From Myxococcus eversor (GTDB lineage Bacteria > Myxococcota > Myxococcia > Myxococcales > Myxococcaceae), in the NCBI RefSeq assembly GCF_010894455.1, contig NZ_JAAIXY010000006.1, forward strand, positions 310,001 through 374,000: a stretch of DNA of 64,000 nucleotides. Direction: 5' to 3'. The stretch's first letter is position 1; each line of letters begins with the position of its first letter. Under the pieces are notes generated by a model. The model worked only from the letters and a program-made list of their open reading frames with translations. It had not been told where the DNA came from and searched no databases. Position numbers and translations under genes: made by a program. This document shows, piece after piece, positions 1,928 to 59,420 of this stretch.

Positions 1928-2971
1928 ATGGCGGAGGGTGATTGGAAGAGGACGCCGGAGGTAGCCCGGCGGACGGGGTCGGGCGGCGAGCTGAGCGGCC
2001 GGACGGTGCTCATCGTCGACGATGACCCGGCACACGTGGCGCACGTGCGCGAGGGGCTGGCGCCGCGCGGGTACGTCTTCAAGGAAGCCCATGACGGGAC
2101 GCAGGCGCTGTCGGCCATTCGCGAGGCGAGGCCGGACCTCATCCTGATGGACGTGGAGATGCCGGGGCTGGGCGGCGTGGAGGTGTGCCGCATCATCAAG
2201 GCGAACTCCGGGGAGGAGGGCTTCGGCTTCATCCCGGTGATTCTGATGACGGCGCGGCAGGCGGCGGGAAAGGTGGAGGGGCTGGAGCTGGGGGCGGACG
2301 ACTACCTGGTGAAGCCGTTCGACATGCTGGAGCTGTCGGCGCGGGTGAAGTCGATGCTGCGGCTCAAGGCGCTCCAGGACGCGCTGGTGGAGAAGAACCG
2401 GGAGCTGGACAAGGCCAACAAGGAGCTGGCGCGGCGGCGCGAGGAGTTGCTCGCCTTGAGCCGCACGGACGCGCTCACGGGCCTGTTCAACCGGCGCTGC
2501 TTCGAGGAGCGGCTGGGCGACGAGTTCGCGCGCTCGCGGCGCTACCAGTCCCCGCTGTCGCTGGTGATGCTGGACATCGACCACTTCAAGCGCATCAACG
2601 ACACCTTCGGCCACCCCTTCGGGGACCAGGTGCTCAAGGCGGTGGCGCAGACGACGCGCTCGCGGCTGCGCGAAGTGGACGTGCTGGCGCGCTATGGCGG
2701 GGAGGAGTTCATCGCGCTCTTGCCGGAGACGGGGACGGCGGACGCGCTCAGGGTGTGCGAGCGCGTGCGCGAGGCCATCGCGGAGCTGCGGGTGGAGCAC
2801 GTGGGCGTGGACGGGAAGCGGCAGGAGGTGCGCCTGACGGCGTCGCTGGGCGTGGCCACGGTGCCCTCGGCGGACCTGGAGAGCTCGGAGGCGCTGCTGC
2901 GCGCGGCGGACGCGGCGCTCTACGGGGCCAAGGGAGCGGGGCGAAACCGTGTCCAGCAACACGTTCCGTGA
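1928..2971 (+). CDS. REC-GGDEF response-regulator diguanylate cyclase
   Basis: A 347-residue soluble regulator that should make cyclic di-GMP when phosphorylated. The receiver domain spans about 26-145, with the acidic DDD cluster at 31-33, phosphoacceptor Asp75 (LILMDVEMPG) and the conserved Lys in YLVKPF. A coiled linker follows (about 150-180). The GGDEF domain has an intact GGEEF active site at 257-261 and an RxxD product-inhibition site at 248-251, exactly five residues upstream, so feedback inhibition is expected. No histidine kinase gene is adjacent. The ATG at 1928 is preferred over TTG at 1907. The architecture matches myxobacterial cyclases such as DmxB, but I cannot assign it to that orthologue. 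Confidence 0.93.
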   Translation: MAEGDWKRTPEVARRTGSGGELSGRTVLIVDDDPAHVAHVREGLAPRGYVFKEAHDGTQALSAIREARPDLILMDVEMPGLGGVEVCRIIKANSGEEGFGFIPVILMTARQAAGKVEGLELGADDYLVKPFDMLELSARVKSMLRLKALQDALVEKNRELDKANKELARRREELLALSRTDALTGLFNRRCFEERLGDEFARSRRYQSPLSLVMLDIDHFKRINDTFGHPFGDQVLKAVAQTTRSRLREVDVLARYGGEEFIALLPETGTADALRVCERVREAIAELRVEHVGVDGKRQEVRLTASLGVATVPSADLESSEALLRAADAALYGAKGAGRNRVQQHVP

Positions 2972-3026
2972 GGTGGACGCACCCAAGGCTTTCCCCCGGC
3001 GCCGCTTTGACCTAAACCCCACCCCC

Positions 3027-3443
3027 ATGCGCCTGACCGCGACGATGCCCTGGTTGCTGGCCCTGCTCCTGGTGGGCGTGGCCGGCTGCAACCAGCCCCG
3101 CTTCGGCACACCGCAAGATGCGTATACGTCCTTCCACCGGCTGGTGAAGCGCGGCGAGTTCCGCGCGGCCTGGGGCGCCTTGTCCCAGCCCACCCAGACG
3201 GCCCTGACGAAGCGGGCCCAGGCGGTGGCTGACGCCTCCGGGGGCGCGGTGAAACCCGAGCCCCTGGGCCTCTTCTTCGCGAATGTCCCCCCTCCTCCGG
3301 ATGTTACGGAGGTCTCCCTGGTCCGGGAGGCGAACGACGAGGCGACCGTGCTCGTTCGCTCGTCAGGCAGCACCCACGAGGTCCGGATGGTCCGTGAGCC
3401 GTCTGGGTGGAAAGTGGACCTCTCAGCCTCCCTCCAGCCGTGA
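3027..3443 (+). CDS. Small lipoprotein, NTF2/DUF4878-like
   Basis: A 138-residue predicted lipoprotein. A hydrophobic leader ends in the lipobox VAGC with Cys21 as the lipidation site. The mature part starts with a helix of the kind 'TPQDAYTSFHRLVKRGEFRAAW', typical of DUF4878/NTF2-like small periplasmic lipoproteins, and ends with beta strands that contain a VRMVREPSGWKVDL segment. The ATG at 3027 is chosen because it precedes the signal peptide directly; the frame is open 26 codons further upstream without signal character. Function is unknown. It sits between the cyclase and the Hfq-like gene, all on the same strand. Confidence 0.75.
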   Translation: MRLTATMPWLLALLLVGVAGCNQPRFGTPQDAYTSFHRLVKRGEFRAAWGALSQPTQTALTKRAQAVADASGGAVKPEPLGLFFANVPPPPDVTEVSLVREANDEATVLVRSSGSTHEVRMVREPSGWKVDLSASLQP

Positions 3444-3486
3444 AGCCGGGCATGCTCGGGCTCCTCGCATCAGGTAACGTACGACT

Positions 3487-4689
3487 GTGAACGATCGGAA
3501 GACACGGCGGGTGGTTCCCGCGGTCGAAGTCATCCGGCGGCCGGCCTCGACGCCCGGCAGCGCCGCCCAGACTCCGTCCCCCTCGGAATCCGCCCCTCCG
3601 GCGCCCACACCGCGCCCCACGCCCACGCCCCGGCCTGCCGCCGGCATGGCGCCCTCCACCCCGCCCGCCCCCCGGCCCGCGGGAGTGAATCCCGCGCCCC
3701 GTCCCGCCGCCCCCACGGCGACGGCCCCGGCCACCCCCCCGGCGCTCCCGCCCACTCCCCGGCCCGCCGGCGTGGCTCCCGCCCCCTCGCCGCGTCCGGC
3801 GGGGGTGACACCCGGCGCCCGTCCGATGGCACCGCGAGCACCCGGAGGACCCGGCGGACCCGGTGCCCGTCCAGGAGGCTTCGGTGGCCGGCCCGGAGGC
3901 TTCCGCTCCTCCACGCCGCGGCCTCCGCCCACGCCCGAGCAGATCCTCGCGCTGGCGCAGCGCGAGCATGTGCCCGCGCGCATCGCCAAGGGTGAGCTGG
4001 AAGGGAAGATGAAGGCGCGCATCTGGCGCAAGCTGCACGCCGAGGAGGCGAAGCGCTTCGACCAGGTCTACGAGCTGATGGGCCAGACGCCGGACCTGTC
4101 GCTGGGGGATGCCTTCGGCGTGCTCCAGAGCGGCATGACGGTGGCGGAGTTCATGGCGCGCAAGGAGCGCACCCAGCGCAAGGCGGCCATCAAGCAGGCG
4201 CGCGGCGAGGTGGACAACGCCGTGGTAGCGGAGCTGCTCGGCGGCTTCATCTCCGGCAAGGTAGAGGTGTCCGTCGTCCTGGCGGAGCGCTCGCTGCTGG
4301 ACACGCTCGTCGCCGAGGAGCCCATCGCCTTCACGCTGGAGCGCACCGGGCGGCTGGAGAAGCTGCAGGTGGTGCTGCTGGCGCGCCGCGCCGAGTGGGA
4401 GCGACTGCTGCCGAGCCTGGAGCGCGATGCCAAGCTGACGCAGAAGCCGTCCACGGTGGCGCGTCAGCCGGACAAGCGTCCGTACTCGGACCCGCGCGCG
4501 TTCCTGGACCACCTGGGCGACACGGTGAAGCTGGTGCTGCGCAACGGCATCACCCTCCAGCTCCCGCTGATGCACGTGGGCCGGTTCGACCTGCTGCTGG
4601 GTGAGCCGGGCCACGAGGTCTTCGTCCCACTCCACGCCCTGCTCAAGTTCGAGCCGGGTCCCTCGAGCGCTCCCGCCGACGAGGCCTGA
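3487..4689 (+). CDS. Proline-rich protein with C-terminal Hfq/Sm-like domain
   Basis: A 400-residue protein with three parts. Residues 1 to about 150 are low-complexity Pro/Ala/Arg/Gly with repeated PRPAG(V) units and are surely disordered. Residues about 155-320 are helical and charged (an IARIAKGELEGK-type segment, then an RKAAIKQARGEV helix). Residues about 336-388 read like an Hfq core: a DP start, VKLVLRNGITLQL from residue 347, then GRFDLLLG, VFVPLHALLKFEP and an acidic tail. The NGI-LQ, F-x-LL and HA spacing all match the Sm1 and Sm2 motifs of Hfq. GTG start at 3487, 43 bp after the lipoprotein. The RNA-binding role is inference from the fold match. Confidence 0.7.
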   Translation: MNDRKTRRVVPAVEVIRRPASTPGSAAQTPSPSESAPPAPTPRPTPTPRPAAGMAPSTPPAPRPAGVNPAPRPAAPTATAPATPPALPPTPRPAGVAPAPSPRPAGVTPGARPMAPRAPGGPGGPGARPGGFGGRPGGFRSSTPRPPPTPEQILALAQREHVPARIAKGELEGKMKARIWRKLHAEEAKRFDQVYELMGQTPDLSLGDAFGVLQSGMTVAEFMARKERTQRKAAIKQARGEVDNAVVAELLGGFISGKVEVSVVLAERSLLDTLVAEEPIAFTLERTGRLEKLQVVLLARRAEWERLLPSLERDAKLTQKPSTVARQPDKRPYSDPRAFLDHLGDTVKLVLRNGITLQLPLMHVGRFDLLLGEPGHEVFVPLHALLKFEPGPSSAPADEA

Positions 4690-52217: not shown

Positions 52218-53609
52218 ATGCGGCCTCAGCAGACGAACCCCCACCGACTTCATCGACTCAAGCCCCAGGCGCTGTCCCTGCTGGCGCTGCTCACCCTCGG
52301 CTGGAGCAGCGGCTGCGAGGAGCAGCGGTCCGCCCCGGCGCACGTCGAAGGCGTCGCGACTTCACGCCAGCTCGCGCGCCTGGGCAAGGCGCCCGCCCAC
52401 CTCCGCATCCCCGACGAGTATGTCGTCGTCTTCTCCGAGGGCGTCACCGGACTGGCCATCGAAGCGGTGACGAGCCGCATCGCTCGCGCGGGTGGCGACA
52501 ACGCGCTGCTGCACGCATACACCGTCATCCCCGGGTTCGCCGCGCGACTGGATGAAGCGCAGCTCGACAGGCTGCGCCGGGAGCCCGGCGTGGCGTATAT
52601 CGAGGAGAATCAGCAGGTCTCGCTCAGCGCCGTCTATCCGAGCCCCGCGGATGGCGTCGACCGCTCGGACCAGCGCAAGGGCCACGACGGCCACTTCAAT
52701 GACTACGGCAACACGGGCGCGGGCGTCCATGCGTACGTGCTCGACACAGGCCTCAACCTGGAGCACTCCGAGTTCACGGGTCGCATCGGCACCTACGAGA
52801 CCTTCATCCTGGATGGTCGGGGCATCGCTGATTGCCATGGCCATGGCACGCATGTGGCCAGCACGCTCGCGGGCACCACCTATGGAATGGCCCGGGAGGC
52901 CACCCTCCACCCCGTGCGGGTGCTGCGCTGCAATGGACTGGGCAGCTGGGCGGGAATCATCGCCGGCCTGGATTTCGTCCAGACCGACTGTCGTGCGCAG
53001 TCCGCGCGCTGTGTCGCCAACATGAGCCTCACCGGTTCGCTCTACCCACCCGTCAACGCCGCGGTGGCCAACCTGGTGAACGGAGGCATCCCCGTCGTGG
53101 TCGCCGCGGGCAATGATGACCTGAACGCCTGCACCCAGTCCCCCGCCAGCGAGCCCGCGGCCATCACCGTCGCGGCCATCGACGACAACGACGTCCGCGC
53201 CGGGTTCTCCAACTGGGGGTCTTGCGTGGACCTCTTCGCCCCGGGAGTGAGCATCCTGGGCGCATGGATTGGCGGCGCCGTGGAGACCCAGGTCGATGAT
53301 GGCACCTCCATGGCCAGCCCTCACGTGGCCGGCACCGTGGCCCAGTATTTGAGCACCCGCCCCACCGCCACGCCCGCGCAGATTGATACCAACCTCAAGG
53401 CCGCCGCGACGCTGGGCTGCGTGAGCGACCTCAAAGGCTCTCCGAACGTGCTGCTCTTCAGTGACCTGAGCCAGGGCAACTATCACTGCATCGAGGAGAC
53501 CGCGAGCTGCAAGGGATTGTGTGGACAGGCCGCGGATGGCTGCTTCTGCGACCCCAGCTGTCTGGAGTTCAACGACTGCTGCCCCGACTTCGAGGAAGTG
53601 TGTCAGTGA
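52218..53609 (+). CDS. Secreted S8 subtilase with C-terminal somatomedin-B-like domain
   Basis: A 463-residue exported serine protease. After a signal peptide (Cys33 could be lipidated but the SSGC context is poor) comes an I9 propeptide (EYVVVFSEGVTG to VAYIEENQQVS, residues 66-138), then the proteinase-K-like catalytic domain: Asp in VLDTGLNLEHSEF, His in CHGHGTHVAS, oxyanion Asn in AAGNDD and Ser in DDGTSMASPHVAG. The last 40 residues have eight cysteines in the order C-C-C-C-C-CC-C (SCKGLCGQAADGCFCDPSC onward), the pattern of the animal somatomedin-B domain. ATG 52218; 29 bases before the Hint lipoprotein gene. Confidence 0.88.
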   Translation: MRPQQTNPHRLHRLKPQALSLLALLTLGWSSGCEEQRSAPAHVEGVATSRQLARLGKAPAHLRIPDEYVVVFSEGVTGLAIEAVTSRIARAGGDNALLHAYTVIPGFAARLDEAQLDRLRREPGVAYIEENQQVSLSAVYPSPADGVDRSDQRKGHDGHFNDYGNTGAGVHAYVLDTGLNLEHSEFTGRIGTYETFILDGRGIADCHGHGTHVASTLAGTTYGMAREATLHPVRVLRCNGLGSWAGIIAGLDFVQTDCRAQSARCVANMSLTGSLYPPVNAAVANLVNGGIPVVVAAGNDDLNACTQSPASEPAAITVAAIDDNDVRAGFSNWGSCVDLFAPGVSILGAWIGGAVETQVDDGTSMASPHVAGTVAQYLSTRPTATPAQIDTNLKAAATLGCVSDLKGSPNVLLFSDLSQGNYHCIEETASCKGLCGQAADGCFCDPSCLEFNDCCPDFEEVCQ

Positions 53610-53638: not shown

Positions 53639-55492
53639 ATGTTTCGAATGCGTCGTTTTCTGGTGATGGGTAGCACCGCGTGCCTGGCGCTGTTGTCGGG
53701 ATGCACGTCCACCCCCCGAGAAGAGCAGATCGCGAACTTCGGTCGCACCGCTCGGGGACTCGGCGACGCGACGCGGCTGACCCAGAAGGAGTGGGCCACC
53801 TATCAGGATGACCAGCGATACCTGCACGGCATCGCCAGGCCCGACGTCCGCATCCGCCTGAACCTGGCGGACCCCGCGCAGTACCGCTTCGCGCTGGCGC
53901 GCCTCAAGCTCGCGGGCAAGACGCCCCAGAACTCGCCGTACCTGTTCGAGGCCCTGGAGCAGCGACACCGGGAGCATGTCGCGCAAGGCCACGCACCGGG
54001 GCTGCTCCCGCCCGAGGGGCGCGACCTGGCACCGTCCGCCGAAATCAAGGAGGTTCATGCCTTCGACCAGGCCAACGCGGGTGAGGGCACCAAGGAAGCC
54101 AACGACGGCTCCGTCACCGCCACCTCCACCATCCCCGGGGGCTCCTACTACACCTATACGGACGCCAACTTCACGGACGTGACAGGGTATCCGCTGAGCG
54201 CGCTCGCCTGGGTCGAGGAGTTCGACGGGGGTGAGCACCTGACGGCCTCCGCGGAGGCCAACCTGGCGCTCACGCGGCTGGGGCGCTACCGCGTCTCCAC
54301 CTACAAGGTCGAGGACTCCGAGGACGGGTTCAAGGACTCGTATCTCTTCTCCGAGTTCGGCACGCCCCCTGGGACCACCTCCATCCGGCCCGGGGTGTCG
54401 CCCGCCACCATCTACGCCCCCGTGGACACGGTCCTCAATGACAACCTCATCTCCGTGTGCCTCAACCGCACCTGGACCCAGGACTGCGACTACGACCTGA
54501 CGGGCACGCCCCAGGCCATCAAGATGCCCTTGAAGGGGGAAATCGTCCTCACGACGCCCGAGCACGTCTTCGACCAGGCGAAGATCAACCAGTTCAAGAC
54601 CGACCTGGCCGCCGGCATGGCGACCTACGACGTGGGGCACCTCAGGCTCATCCTCACCAACGCCGGAGGCGGCTGCGATGTGACGGATGGGAACCTCATC
54701 GAGGCGAAGATGGGGCAGTTCTGGAACCGGACCGCCCTGAGCGCGGACAAGAAGACCTTCTCCTGGGACCTGACGGGCGCCTACGCCGCCTTCTTCGATG
54801 ACGGCTGCCGTCAGGTGCAGGACGACGTGAAGCTGACGCTGAAGATCGTCATCCCCATCACGGATGCGAACAACTTGACGTACCAGACCTCCGTCACGTT
54901 GACCAATGAGGACCTCCCCAGGCTGGCGAAGAGCTTCAAGCCCATCACCGTCACGAACAGTTGCCTGGCCGCGGGAACCGAAATCGAACTGGCCGCCGGC
55001 AAGACGGCGCCGGTGGAGGCCCTGAAGGCTGGAGACCGGGTGCTCAACCCGCATCAGCCGTCGCTCACCGTCATGGACACGGCCATCGGCACGGAGACCG
55101 TTCCCATGGTGCGCATCCGCAGCGAGGCCGGCCGCAGCCTGCTGATGACGGAGATGCACCCCATCCAGGTCATGGCGCGCGGCATGGTCCAGGCCAGGGC
55201 CCTGAAGAAGGGCGACGTGGTCCTGACCAAGGCGGGCCCCAGCAAGCTCGTGGAGGTCAGCCGCGAGCCGTACGCCGGCAAGGTGTACAACGTGAAGGTC
55301 GGCTCGGACACGGAGAAGCTGGCGCTCGGCGCGGACCAGACCGTCGTGTATGCCAATGGCTTCGTCGTGGGCGACGGCCAGATTCAGCGGAAGTACGAGT
55401 CCATCGCGATGACCCGCAAGAACCCCAACGTCCTGGCCACGTTGCCGGGCAAGTGGCACCGCGACTACCAACTGGCCGCCAGGCGCAAGTAG
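53639..55492 (+). CDS. Lipoprotein with C-terminal Hint (hedgehog/intein-like) self-cleaving domain
   Basis: A 617-residue lipoprotein (lipobox LLSGC). Residues about 30-440 are a novel module with a Gly/Thr/Tyr-rich beta domain. Residues 442-590 form a Hint domain: Cys442 after Asn-Ser (SCLAAGTEIELAAGK), a block-B TEMHP at 504-508 with His507, DVVLTKAGPSKLVEV, and VVYANGFVVGD near the end. No C-extein Asn/Cys splice junction is visible, so it should cleave itself before Cys442 rather than splice. GGAGGAGG ribosome-binding site. It follows the subtilase gene by 29 bases. Confidence 0.85.
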   Translation: MFRMRRFLVMGSTACLALLSGCTSTPREEQIANFGRTARGLGDATRLTQKEWATYQDDQRYLHGIARPDVRIRLNLADPAQYRFALARLKLAGKTPQNSPYLFEALEQRHREHVAQGHAPGLLPPEGRDLAPSAEIKEVHAFDQANAGEGTKEANDGSVTATSTIPGGSYYTYTDANFTDVTGYPLSALAWVEEFDGGEHLTASAEANLALTRLGRYRVSTYKVEDSEDGFKDSYLFSEFGTPPGTTSIRPGVSPATIYAPVDTVLNDNLISVCLNRTWTQDCDYDLTGTPQAIKMPLKGEIVLTTPEHVFDQAKINQFKTDLAAGMATYDVGHLRLILTNAGGGCDVTDGNLIEAKMGQFWNRTALSADKKTFSWDLTGAYAAFFDDGCRQVQDDVKLTLKIVIPITDANNLTYQTSVTLTNEDLPRLAKSFKPITVTNSCLAAGTEIELAAGKTAPVEALKAGDRVLNPHQPSLTVMDTAIGTETVPMVRIRSEAGRSLLMTEMHPIQVMARGMVQARALKKGDVVLTKAGPSKLVEVSREPYAGKVYNVKVGSDTEKLALGADQTVVYANGFVVGDGQIQRKYESIAMTRKNPNVLATLPGKWHRDYQLAARRK

Positions 55493-55592: not shown

Positions 55593-55661
55593 TGCCCGTT
55601 GTCGCCCACTGAATGACGCAGTCGACCGGCCCTACCCGCTCAACGCACCGGAGTGAACCTG

Positions 55662-58600
55662 ATGCAGACGCGCACCGTTCTCCTGCTCCCGCTCGTCGTC
55701 GCGATGTCCGTGGCGTGTGGTGACGCCAGCCTCCCCGAGCCCCAACCGCCACCGCGGCACGCCAAGGCCTTGCGCGCGGAGCCCGACCTGGAGCGCCAGC
55801 GCATCGCGAGCCGGTATCTGGTGCGGCCCTCAACAGGAGCCACGCTCGCCACCTTCACCGAAATGGCCACGGCGCTCGACCTTCCCGCGGGCTCCCTGGT
55901 CAGCGGGCAGCTGACCACCCCCGCCGCCGAGGCCGCGGTGGTCCTGCCCAACTTCGGGGATATCCTGCCCCGGAAGGGCAACTCCCTGGTCGTCCTGAGC
56001 ACCGGCTACGTCAACGACCGCGTCCGGGTGCCCGAGCCAGGCACTGACTTCGCGCCGCCAGGAACCGCTGGCGACGTCGTCACCCTCCGCCTCACGTTCA
56101 ACGTCCGGCCGGGCATGACCCGCCTGTCCTTCGACTACCGCTTCCTGAGCGCCGAATCCCCTGACTTCATCGGCAGCCTGTACAACGACCAGTTCACCGC
56201 GCAGGTGACGGAAGGGCAAGGACTCCCACGGCTGATTGAACAGACGTCGGTGAACAGCGCCCACTTCTTCGATGCCTCCAAGACGCGCGCGGGCAACACC
56301 CAGTTCGACTCGCTGCTCGCGGACGACCCGTCCGGCGTCGACTACTTCCCGGTCACCTATCCGCACGGCACCCAGGTCTACCCCGACGCGGGCATCACCG
56401 ACTTCAAGACCGTCAACGTCGCCATCTCGGGTGGAGGTCAGGTCACGCTCGTGTTCGAGATTCGCGACCTCGAGGATGGAATCCTCGACTCCACGGTGGT
56501 CATCGACAACATCGCCTTCTCGAGCCTGGAGGTGATTGATCCCAACCCCATCCTCATTGATACACACCATGAGACGGTGGAGACCAACCTGCCCCGGCTC
56601 GCCGCACTCGGCACCGCGGCGAGCTCGGTCGCCGCCGACGGCGCGACCATCGTCCTGCTGCGCGCCAGACTCCCCGGCCCCGGCTCCATGGTCTTCAAGC
56701 TGGGCGACACCCAGATTCCCGCGAACGGGGGGCTCGGCGCGGTGGGCAGCACCGCCGCTCCCACCAACATCGTCACCGTGCCTGTCCAGCAAATCTCCAC
56801 GGGACAATACTACGCCTTTGCCTTGTACACGGCGCCGGAGGACTTCAACCGCCCCGGGCTGCCTGCTCCCGGTGACACCAAGAGCTCCCAGCGGACGGTG
56901 GGCCTCGCCACGACGTACACCCCGGTCAGCGGCGCCAGCTTCGCGGACACGCACGAGCTCATCGTGGTCCGGCCACCCGTGGTCGCCATTCATGACATCT
57001 GGTCGAACTGTGAGTTCTGGGAGTGGAACGCGGGAATCTCCCGTGAGGACTACCTCGACGTGACCTGTGCGGACTATTCGGCGACCAACTCGGAAAGCAT
57101 CGACTCACCCGCGAACAGGAATGTCTTCGCGAATACGGTGAGAGAGGCCCTGCTGGAGATGCGCCTGAAGGGCACCGCGGTGACCCGTGTGGACACACTC
57201 GCCCATGGCATGGGCGGAGTGATGGTTCGCCGGTACGCCAGGTGGACCAACTACAAGAACGCACTGAACTTCGGAAAGGGAGATCTCAACCGCATCATCT
57301 ACCTGAACACCCCCCATGGGGGCTCGCGCATGGCGAATGCCATGGTTGACCTCCGCAACAACATGAAGCTCGTCTTCCCCAACGAGTGGCAGACGGTCGT
57401 CAATGATCTGGAAAAGAACTTCCAGATCTCCATCGGCGCCGCCGACGCGGGCGCCGATGCGGGACCGCTCGCCATCGATGACCTGCAGCTCAACAACCCC
57501 ATCCTTGTCGCTGACGCGGGACCGACCGTGATTCCCTCTCACGTCCTGGTGACTCGCAATGCCATGAACCTCGAGAGGCCCCAGGCACGGGGGCTCGTCT
57601 TCGACAAGCTCAAGGTGTTGTACGACAAGATGGAGAAGTACCATCCGCTGACGGACGACCTCCTGCCTCCGGCGTACTGGAATCTCATCATGCGCGCCAA
57701 CATCGAGAGACTCCCCGCCAGCAATGTCCAGCCCAGCAGGCTGTTCTGCAACCAGGACTTTGACCTGTTCGCCTCCGAGATGGACCAACGGGGGGGAGCC
57801 TCCGATGCGGGGACGACGACCTTCCAGATGAGCGCCACCGCCCTGGACCTGGAGCATTTCAAGGCGCCCAGCAACGCCGCGGTCACCACGCGAATCATCC
57901 AGTTGCTCAACAGTCCCATCAATGGCGGTTCCTTCGACCCTTCACTCCCCGCCCCCAGCGCCCCCCCCCTGTGCACGGGCGGAGGAGGCGGCAGCGTCGC
58001 ATTGCTTTCCGACGAGGGCCCCGACCCCGAGTGGTTCGAGCCCTCCCAGGCCCAGACAAGGCCCGATGAGCCGCCAGCACCGCGTGGTCCGAGCGTGCTC
58101 GCGGGTGGCATCCGCATTGTTTCGCCTGCCCCAGGAACCCCAGTGAGCCCAGGCGGCACGGTGAACGTGGTTCTGGAGGGCACGGGCGGCTTCGTCCCCA
58201 TGGTGGCCTATGTCATGGGTGCGGGAAAGGCGGTCATCATCGAACAGGCCCCCTTCACCACCTCATTCCAGATTCCGGCCCATGCCATCGGCTCGCTGTC
58301 GTTGGCTGTCACCGCCATCAGCGCGCAAAGACAGATGGTGAGCGCGGAAGCCGTCGTCCTTCCCATCGTCTCATCGGCGCAACTGACCTCCATGTCCGTC
58401 ACCAATGGAGACGGCGTCATTCATGGGCCCGGGTCGACCCGCCACCTGGGAGTCACCGGCCTCTACAGTGACGGCGTCCAACGGAACATCACCGCCCAGG
58501 CGCTGGGAACCTTGTACTCGTCTTCGAATGACGGCATCGCCACGGTGACCACCGCGGGCGTCGTCACCGGCAGGGCCCCAGGCATCGCCACCATCGTGGT

Positions 58601-59420
58601 CCGCAACGCGGATGTGACCACGAGCATCTCCGTGACGGTCCTGGAGGCGCCTGTCGCGAACTGTCTCCAGGTCCGCCTCAATGACTACAACCTCTTCGTG
58701 CTCGAGGACTACAAACAGGGCATCGATGTCGGAGGACGAATCGCGGCCGGCGGCAGCATCTTCCTGAAGGACTTCCGGGTGGGCTGGAAGCTGCCGGACA
58801 CCGACACCGACAACATCCTGGTGGCGGGCATCAACCTGAACCTGAACAATGGCACCGTCTGGGGTGATGCCAGGTACGGAGGCCAGCTCATCCCTCAAGG
58901 AACCCTCAGCATCCAGCGCGGCTCCGCGAGTCGTGGCACGCCCGTCGACTTCGCCGCCAGAGGCGCCGCCCTGCGCACGCTCTCCACCCGCCTGGCCGCC
59001 CTTCCCGTTCAGGGCACCACCACCGTGGAGAGCTGGGGCGGAATCCTGCTGCGTGGCACCCACCCCAAGGTGAATGTCTTCTGGGTCGAGGCAGAGAGCT
59101 TCACGAACGCGACGCTGCTTTCCGTCGAAGCGCCCGTGAACTCGCTCGCCATCATCAACGTCCGGGGGACCTCCGCCCGCTTCAGCAACTTTGGCCATGT
59201 CTTCAGCGGCGGCATCGACGAGAGCGGAATCCTCTTCAACTTTCCGCAGGCCACCTCACTCACCGCATTTGACTATGGTTTCTACGGAACAGTCCTTGCA
59301 CCAAATGCACACGTCAGCTTCAATGCCGGAAGCTGGGTCGGCGGCATGTACGCTCGCTCACTGGCAGGCAATGCCGTAGGCCATATCAACCGGCTGCGGG
59401 ACACGGATATCTGCCAGTGA
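55662..59420 (+). CDS. Surface lipoprotein adhesin with pseudo-lipase and choice-of-anchor A domains
   Basis: A 1252-residue lipoprotein (lipobox SVAC). Residues 60-290 are a choice-of-anchor L-like beta domain. Residues 430-700 are a lipase-like alpha/beta-hydrolase (VVAIHDIWSNCEFWEW, VDTLAHGMGGVMVRRYAR, YLNTPHGGSRMA), but the nucleophile elbow reads AHGMGG, so Ser is Gly516, and HG of the oxyanion loop is HD. Near 905-985 is a Big_2 Ig-like domain. The C-terminal 240 residues (VRLNDYNLFVLEDY, VGGRIAAGGSI, VLAPNAHVSFNAGSWVGGMY) are a choice-of-anchor A adhesin domain. ATG 55662 has a GGAG site eight bases upstream; GTG 55653 is possible. Confidence 0.8.
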   Translation: MQTRTVLLLPLVVAMSVACGDASLPEPQPPPRHAKALRAEPDLERQRIASRYLVRPSTGATLATFTEMATALDLPAGSLVSGQLTTPAAEAAVVLPNFGDILPRKGNSLVVLSTGYVNDRVRVPEPGTDFAPPGTAGDVVTLRLTFNVRPGMTRLSFDYRFLSAESPDFIGSLYNDQFTAQVTEGQGLPRLIEQTSVNSAHFFDASKTRAGNTQFDSLLADDPSGVDYFPVTYPHGTQVYPDAGITDFKTVNVAISGGGQVTLVFEIRDLEDGILDSTVVIDNIAFSSLEVIDPNPILIDTHHETVETNLPRLAALGTAASSVAADGATIVLLRARLPGPGSMVFKLGDTQIPANGGLGAVGSTAAPTNIVTVPVQQISTGQYYAFALYTAPEDFNRPGLPAPGDTKSSQRTVGLATTYTPVSGASFADTHELIVVRPPVVAIHDIWSNCEFWEWNAGISREDYLDVTCADYSATNSESIDSPANRNVFANTVREALLEMRLKGTAVTRVDTLAHGMGGVMVRRYARWTNYKNALNFGKGDLNRIIYLNTPHGGSRMANAMVDLRNNMKLVFPNEWQTVVNDLEKNFQISIGAADAGADAGPLAIDDLQLNNPILVADAGPTVIPSHVLVTRNAMNLERPQARGLVFDKLKVLYDKMEKYHPLTDDLLPPAYWNLIMRANIERLPASNVQPSRLFCNQDFDLFASEMDQRGGASDAGTTTFQMSATALDLEHFKAPSNAAVTTRIIQLLNSPINGGSFDPSLPAPSAPPLCTGGGGGSVALLSDEGPDPEWFEPSQAQTRPDEPPAPRGPSVLAGGIRIVSPAPGTPVSPGGTVNVVLEGTGGFVPMVAYVMGAGKAVIIEQAPFTTSFQIPAHAIGSLSLAVTAISAQRQMVSAEAVVLPIVSSAQLTSMSVTNGDGVIHGPGSTRHLGVTGLYSDGVQRNITAQALGTLYSSSNDGIATVTTAGVVTGRAPGIATIVVRNADVTTSISVTVLEAPVANCLQVRLNDYNLFVLEDYKQGIDVGGRIAAGGSIFLKDFRVGWKLPDTDTDNILVAGINLNLNNGTVWGDARYGGQLIPQGTLSIQRGSASRGTPVDFAARGAALRTLSTRLAALPVQGTTTVESWGGILLRGTHPKVNVFWVEAESFTNATLLSVEAPVNSLAIINVRGTSARFSNFGHVFSGGIDESGILFNFPQATSLTAFDYGFYGTVLAPNAHVSFNAGSWVGGMYARSLAGNAVGHINRLRDTDICQ

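Follow-up and report, generated by a model that had tools for sequence, protein, structure and literature searches.

According to our analysis, the open reading frame at positions 53639 to 55492 (plus strand) of the window, the 64,000-nucleotide stretch of the Myxococcus eversor genome (11.4 Mb) analysed here, encodes a 617-amino-acid lipoprotein followed by a stop codon, which is likely, judging from its sequence, to cut itself by means of its C-terminal Hint domain. This domain is truly related to the self-cutting domains found in hedgehog proteins and inteins, as both the sequence comparisons and the predicted model indicate. The course of events that we favour, with a probability of roughly 0.55, is that the protein would be exported, lipidated and folded, after which an N-S acyl shift at Ser441-Cys442 would allow the anchored N-terminal part (N-part) to be released by hydrolysis or by a thiol. 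The features on which this reading draws are listed in Table 1.

Table 1. Coordinates in the window of the features of the Hint lipoprotein and of its two flanking genes
Feature	Coordinates	Strand	Basis
S8 subtilase, secreted, with I9 propeptide and C-terminal somatomedin-B domain	52218..53609	+	Pfam; adjoins the Hint gene in close orthologues L013-L028 and L062-L066
Signal peptide and lipobox LALLSGC	53639..53704	+	Predicted lipidated Cys encoded by codon 22 (53702-53704); lipobox of the LSGC or LSAC/LASC type in close orthologues, not in distant ones
N-terminal helical region, residues 41-120, conserved LNLADPAQYRF..RL..AGKTP.NSP.LF	53759..53998	+	AlphaFold2 helices 49-65, 79-91 and 100-115, pLDDT mostly >90; conserved across the family
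First beta-sandwich (Ig-like) domain, residues 139-241	54053..54361	+	AlphaFold2 strands 139-241; weak Ig/adhesin-type fold matches, Z <6
Second beta-sandwich domain, residues 255-441, ending TNS441	54401..54961	+	Invariant C274, R277, D282, C283 and D284; RbmA-like tandem Ig-type matches (Foldseek), Z ~5
Cys442, proposed nucleophile for the N-S acyl shift; scissile bond Ser441-Cys442	54962..54964	+	Cys in 55/55 relatives and six distant homologues
Hint domain, horseshoe fold, residues 442-579	54962..55375	+	Pfam Vint; PDB 2lwy; VIA-align to inteins, bacterial intein-like (BIL) domains and hedgehog
TEMHP 504-508, block B Thr504 and His507	55148..55162	+	T and H in 55/55 relatives
Gly578-Asp579, position of the intein penultimate His and terminal Asn	55370..55375	+	Structure alignment; G and D in 55/55 relatives
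Conserved C-terminal tail, residues 580-617, VGDxx(M/I)Q then LPxxWxxD(Y/F)	55376..55489	+	Residue conservation; predicted helices
1255-aa secreted protein with lipase-like segment and C-terminal pAdhesive_15	55653..59420	+	Pfam; adjoins the Hint gene in close orthologues with a long enough flank

The identity of the C-terminal domain was established by sequence and by fold. The protein exceeds the gathering threshold of the Pfam family Vint (PF14623), its match over residues 442 to 579 reaching an E value of 1.1e-7 and 32.2 bits against a cut-off of 27 bits, and the same family matches 40 of 46 family members at an E value of 0.01, some of them below the threshold. Among solved structures, the best sequence match was 2lwy, a bacterial intein-like domain of Clostridium thermocellum (E value of 1.2e-5 with the single sequence and 6e-12 with the family profile). 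In the AlphaFold2 model, built with 46 relatives in the alignment, the mean pLDDT was 82 and rose to about 90 over the Hint domain; residues 442 to 579 of this model superpose on inteins, BIL domains and hedgehog Hint domains with Z scores of about 15 to 19 in the best rows and rmsd values of about 1.5 to 2.3 Å (Foldseek, VIA-align). The two hallmarks of the Hint superfamily, the horseshoe fold and an N-terminal Cys or Ser combined with the T..H of block B, are thus both found, and the horseshoe on which the original prediction depended is borne out by the predicted model. The relationship to the eukaryotic VWA-Vint proteins includes the best Pfam match, motifs A and B and one relative whose N-part is fused to a VWA domain, but the match spans only positions 1 to 68 of the 166 in the profile, and the present protein is secreted rather than cytosolic. 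Neither a VWA nor a Vwaint domain was found upstream of its Hint domain, nor any Pfam domain in its N-part, and a search of NCBIfam returned no match.

Residues 440 to 442 read Asn-Ser-Cys. To assess conservation, we aligned 55 relatives chosen by BLAST coverage alone, so that Cys442 was not demanded. Twelve positions are identical in all of them, namely C442, T447, G465, T504, H507, P508, N551, G574, V577, G578, D579 and Q583; Cys442 after Asn-Ser, and Thr504 and His507 as the block B residues within TEMHP, were found just as the original prediction had placed them. Six homologues, found in Pseudoalteromonas, Tistrella, Azospirillum, Embleya, Hespellia and Flammeovirga, likewise have this Cys, and the distant relatives retain, besides this Cys, the T/S..H of block B (TSHNH in Flammeovirga) and the VGD...Q end. 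When the regions of the orthologues were compared, dN was smallest in the Hint domain (median of 0.15 versus 0.22 to 0.42 elsewhere, by a simple NG86 estimate on GC-rich genes). Since the reaction at Cys442 is a prediction from sequence and fold, the domain might instead be unreactive and serve a purely structural or chaperone-like role; we hold this to be distinctly improbable, as C442, T504, H507 and P508 stay constant in paralogues as far apart as about 22 to 25% overall identity, and a structural role would not be expected to fix the nucleophile.

In the self-cleavage that we propose, export would be followed by lipidation at Cys22 and by folding of the helical and tandem beta-sandwich N-part, adhesin-like in character, together with the C-terminal Hint domain. 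Cys442, aided by Thr504 and His507, would then attack the carbonyl of Ser441 to form a thioester by the N-S acyl shift, the first step that hedgehog and BIL domains share (PMC9163320, PMC7664689, PMC7765530). The thioester would most likely be resolved by water or by a small thiol, giving a membrane-anchored N-part of 420 residues (22 to 441) and a free fragment of about 19 kDa made of the Hint domain and the tail. No splicing would be expected afterwards, with Asp579 and Gly578 in place of the terminal Asn and the penultimate His and no Cys, Ser or Thr kept at the +1 position. Of the original prediction, a Hint horseshoe on an exported lipoprotein with an intact active site for the acyl shift is supported by the sequence, by the fold, by the invariant C442, T504 and H507 and by the existence of N-parts ending at the junction, while cleavage itself is what we infer from the sequence.

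The N-part, when modelled alone (pLDDT of 87.6), begins with helices, after which come two beta-sandwich domains, and contains, in addition to the invariant residues of the second sandwich, an invariant H140. A fold search with the N-part alone gave no more than weak matches to Ig-type domains (those of RbmA and of MSCRAMM adhesins, and the beta-sandwich domains of transglutaminases, all with Z <6), and no family was assigned; from the model we infer that the N-part is adhesin-like and would work as a surface adhesin. The second N-part domain is also found by itself, in stand-alone proteins, and fused to a VWA domain. Two Hint-less paralogous N-parts end at the Cys442 junction, reading ...IITNS-TGA (L042) and ...ILTNI-TGA (L043), and in L044 (minus strand, about 2072 to 3853) the N-part domain runs from ...LTNS into a VWA domain, the change occurring precisely at the Hint junction. 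The stand-alone and VWA-fused forms therefore mark the N-part as a natural module that ends at the predicted cleavage point, and the Hint-less N-parts that stop at the junction fit N-terminal self-cleavage. In our searches, full-length N-parts in the Myxococcaceae nearly always bore a Hint domain. The VWA-fusion gene of L044 converges with a Hint-bearing gene.

At the other end of the domain, residue 579 falls, in the structural alignment, on the last residue of several inteins (residue 440 of Mtu RecA, 125 of gp41-1, 198 of GyrA and 137 of Npu DnaE). A class 1 intein would have Asn, Gln or Asp at this place, His before it and Cys, Ser or Thr after it, and an A-type BIL would close with His-Asn; here the Asp is present, Gly occupies the position before it in 55/55 relatives, and residue 580, the +1 position, is G, S, N, A, K, L, D or M. 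With Asp579 and Gly578 thus standing in for the terminal Asn and the penultimate His, and with a variable residue at +1, ordinary splicing is unlikely, and classic splicing was disfavoured as a candidate. The original prediction that the domain ends without a splice junction was right in substance and needed refining, since Asp579 lies where inteins have their terminal Asn, and the domain is followed by a conserved tail of 38 residues. The comparison with the A-type BILs has the same two sides: 2lwy is the nearest solved structure by sequence and shows 28% identity in the structural alignment, but those domains end in His-Asn and the present family in Gly-Asp.

The tail is predicted to form helices at residues 580 to 592 and 604 to 616, and is well conserved among the relatives, with Q583 in 55/55, W606 in 50/55 and D609 in 52/55; its Gln, and usually also an acidic-aromatic end, are present in other phyla too. 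One paralogue group (L004, L051 and L047 on the minus strand) stops soon after MQREL, without most of the tail. We considered whether Asp579 might support a C-terminal chemistry of its own, by which the domain would also cleave before residue 580 or splice the N-part to the tail, as do some inteins with a terminal Asp or Gln and A-type BILs that have no +1 nucleophile. Such chemistry appears quite unlikely: Asp579 overlies the terminal Asn of inteins in the structural alignment, is invariant like Gln583, and belongs to the residues (Asn, Gln or Asp) that end all class 1 inteins (PMC7664689), but the penultimate His is Gly in all relatives, residue 580 varies as described, the Hint-less N-parts have no tail, and the truncated paralogue group has almost none. 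A Hint domain of the polymorphic-toxin type, releasing a C-terminal effector, is extremely improbable despite a sub-threshold Pfam match to PT-HINT, given that what follows the domain is just the 38-residue tail, conserved rather than variable, and that the C-terminal His-Asn is missing; toxin release was rejected, there being no C-terminal effector after the Hint domain.

Conservation of the tail suggests that selection may favour something more specific than plain hydrolysis, and it is here that a hedgehog-like ligation has to be weighed. By this account, the thioester would be passed to a specific nucleophile, such as a triterpenol, an amine, or an amino group carried by the cell surface or by a neighbouring protein, with the tail acting like the sterol or adduct recognition region of hedgehog. 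The tail, which is conserved across phyla, does sit at the place of the hedgehog sterol recognition region (SRR), the Hint alignment reaching hedgehog residue 402-403, but the likeness seen here is one of position. The present protein resembles hedgehog further in its C-terminal Hint domain with an extra C-terminal segment, its secreted N-part and its lack of a splice junction; it differs in the length of the tail, in that no SCYA-type motif was seen and, on a manual alignment that pairs D480 with hedgehog Asp303, apparently in the variability of this residue, with Asp kept in 41 of the 55 relatives, Thr found in 12 and Ser in 2. Ligation is further disfavoured by the paralogue group that has lost most of the tail, by the redundancy of adding another lipid to a protein that would already bear one, and by the neighbourhoods, in which no dedicated partner gene common to the paralogue families was seen. 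Taken with the evidence on sterols given below, we regard this account as unlikely.

As for the sterol itself, the genome of the host encodes an oxidosqualene cyclase (880 bits against a cut-off of 851), located close to a squalene epoxidase at G000:C29:268707-272871; these genes speak for ligation, and the genome sequence suggests that this myxobacterium synthesizes sterols. The cyclase is, however, absent from 13 of the 22 orthologue genomes, so that a sterol does not qualify as a general nucleophile; this candidate was rejected by co-occurrence, the cyclase being present in 20 and absent from 24 of the 44 genomes with Hint relatives. The association between the cyclase and the Hint family over 145 genomes is weak and uncorrected for kinship (Fisher p of 0.058). 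Ligation of the N-part to a sterol, an amine or a neighbouring protein, as had originally been envisaged, gained no positive evidence from these comparisons; ligation to a sterol is possible in this host, and the distribution indicates that the family does not need it. The broader proposal, that a phylum-spanning bacterial Hint family with an invariant Gly-Asp-x3-Gln and a conserved tail would hand surface N-parts to a specific nucleophile as a bacterial counterpart of hedgehog ligation beyond sterols, strikes us as very doubtful. Self-cleavage with release by water or a thiol is accordingly the reading that we retain.

As for the predicted lipid anchor of this protein, the lipobox LALLSGC in its reading frame supplies Cys22, and LLSGC22 agrees with the pattern expected of bacterial lipoproteins. 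The lipobox is kept in close orthologues and lost in distant ones: the Archangium orthologues have apparently ordinary signal peptides, and the relatives in Azospirillum, Tistrella and Embleya have no obvious signal peptide. On this sequence evidence, the anchor is not a trait of the whole Hint family, and because several distant relatives lack both an obvious signal peptide and the Cys pair, neither the lipid anchor nor a disulfide defines it. Relatives were found in 44 of the 145 genomes of the order, often in several copies each, with Myxococcus, Corallococcus and Archangium among the named close ones, and relatives of the same layout lie on replicons of Pseudoalteromonas, Tistrella, Azospirillum and Embleya, as well as in Flammeovirga and in one Hespellia MAG. 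Tandem pairs or triplets of Hint paralogues occur in Archangium-like and related genomes (L045, L046, L047 and L048), and a relative without an obvious signal peptide on p3 of Azospirillum brasilense (L097) stands beside a LodA/GoxA-type oxidase and a tryptophan-halogenase-like gene.

In close orthologues, the gene order is preserved over the whole length of the available flanks, and comprises a kinase (minus strand), a sigma-like factor, the S8 subtilase with somatomedin-B, the Hint lipoprotein, the 1255-amino-acid pAdhesive_15 protein and an M36 metallopeptidase. The somatomedin-B module carried by the subtilase is best known from animals. The lipase-like segment of the 1255-amino-acid protein reads AHGMGG, with Gly in place of the nucleophilic Ser of lipases, and (A/G)HGMGG is also found in the L062 to L064 relatives; from its sequence, this neighbour may combine an inactive lipase domain with an adhesive domain of the ice-binding-like type. 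A scan for promoters and terminators gave results at chance level. The same genome contains a second, shorter Hint family (G000:C47:479325-479630, L008, and G000:C47:484691-484984), with a signal peptide, a GCYTAKEK start, an SEHPM motif and the end QNEWAD.

Proteins with a C-terminal Hint domain are as a kind already known, since Bürglin (2008) reported such bacterial proteins, including MXAN_6253 of Myxococcus xanthus and STIAU_1829 of Stigmatella, with two conserved upstream Cys residues (PMC2362128). The shorter Hint family described above may be the M. xanthus one of that report. The present family and the subgroup of Bürglin and of Dassa and Pietrokovski, compared by description only, are alike in the C-terminal Hint-like domain, in belonging to secreted bacterial proteins, in their occurrence in myxobacteria and in the two upstream Cys, here C274 and C283. 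Likewise by description only, as far as the work of Dori-Bachash et al. (2009) is cited in PMC9185962, C-type BILs with a PPS-1 domain in predatory bacteria also join a Hint domain to a conserved N-terminal domain, but the present family extends to Azospirillum, Tistrella, Embleya and Flammeovirga. Our literature search found no paper devoted to MXAN_6253, plu1731 or STIAU_1829. What appears to be undescribed in the literature examined, where the published groups were compared by description only, is the invariant Gly-Asp-x3-Gln at the end of the domain together with the conserved tail, the occurrence of natural N-parts that finish at the junction, and the distribution across several phyla.

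If the Hint domain does cleave, the protein would be a simple self-processing surface lipoprotein in predatory bacteria. With an Asp where inteins have their terminal Asn, a Gln that is invariant at the fourth residue after it and a conserved tail at the position of the hedgehog SRR, the family would offer a good system for studying the roles of Hint domains outside hedgehog proteins and inteins, and if the N-part were ligated to something, this would constitute a new bacterial C-terminal modification of wide interest.
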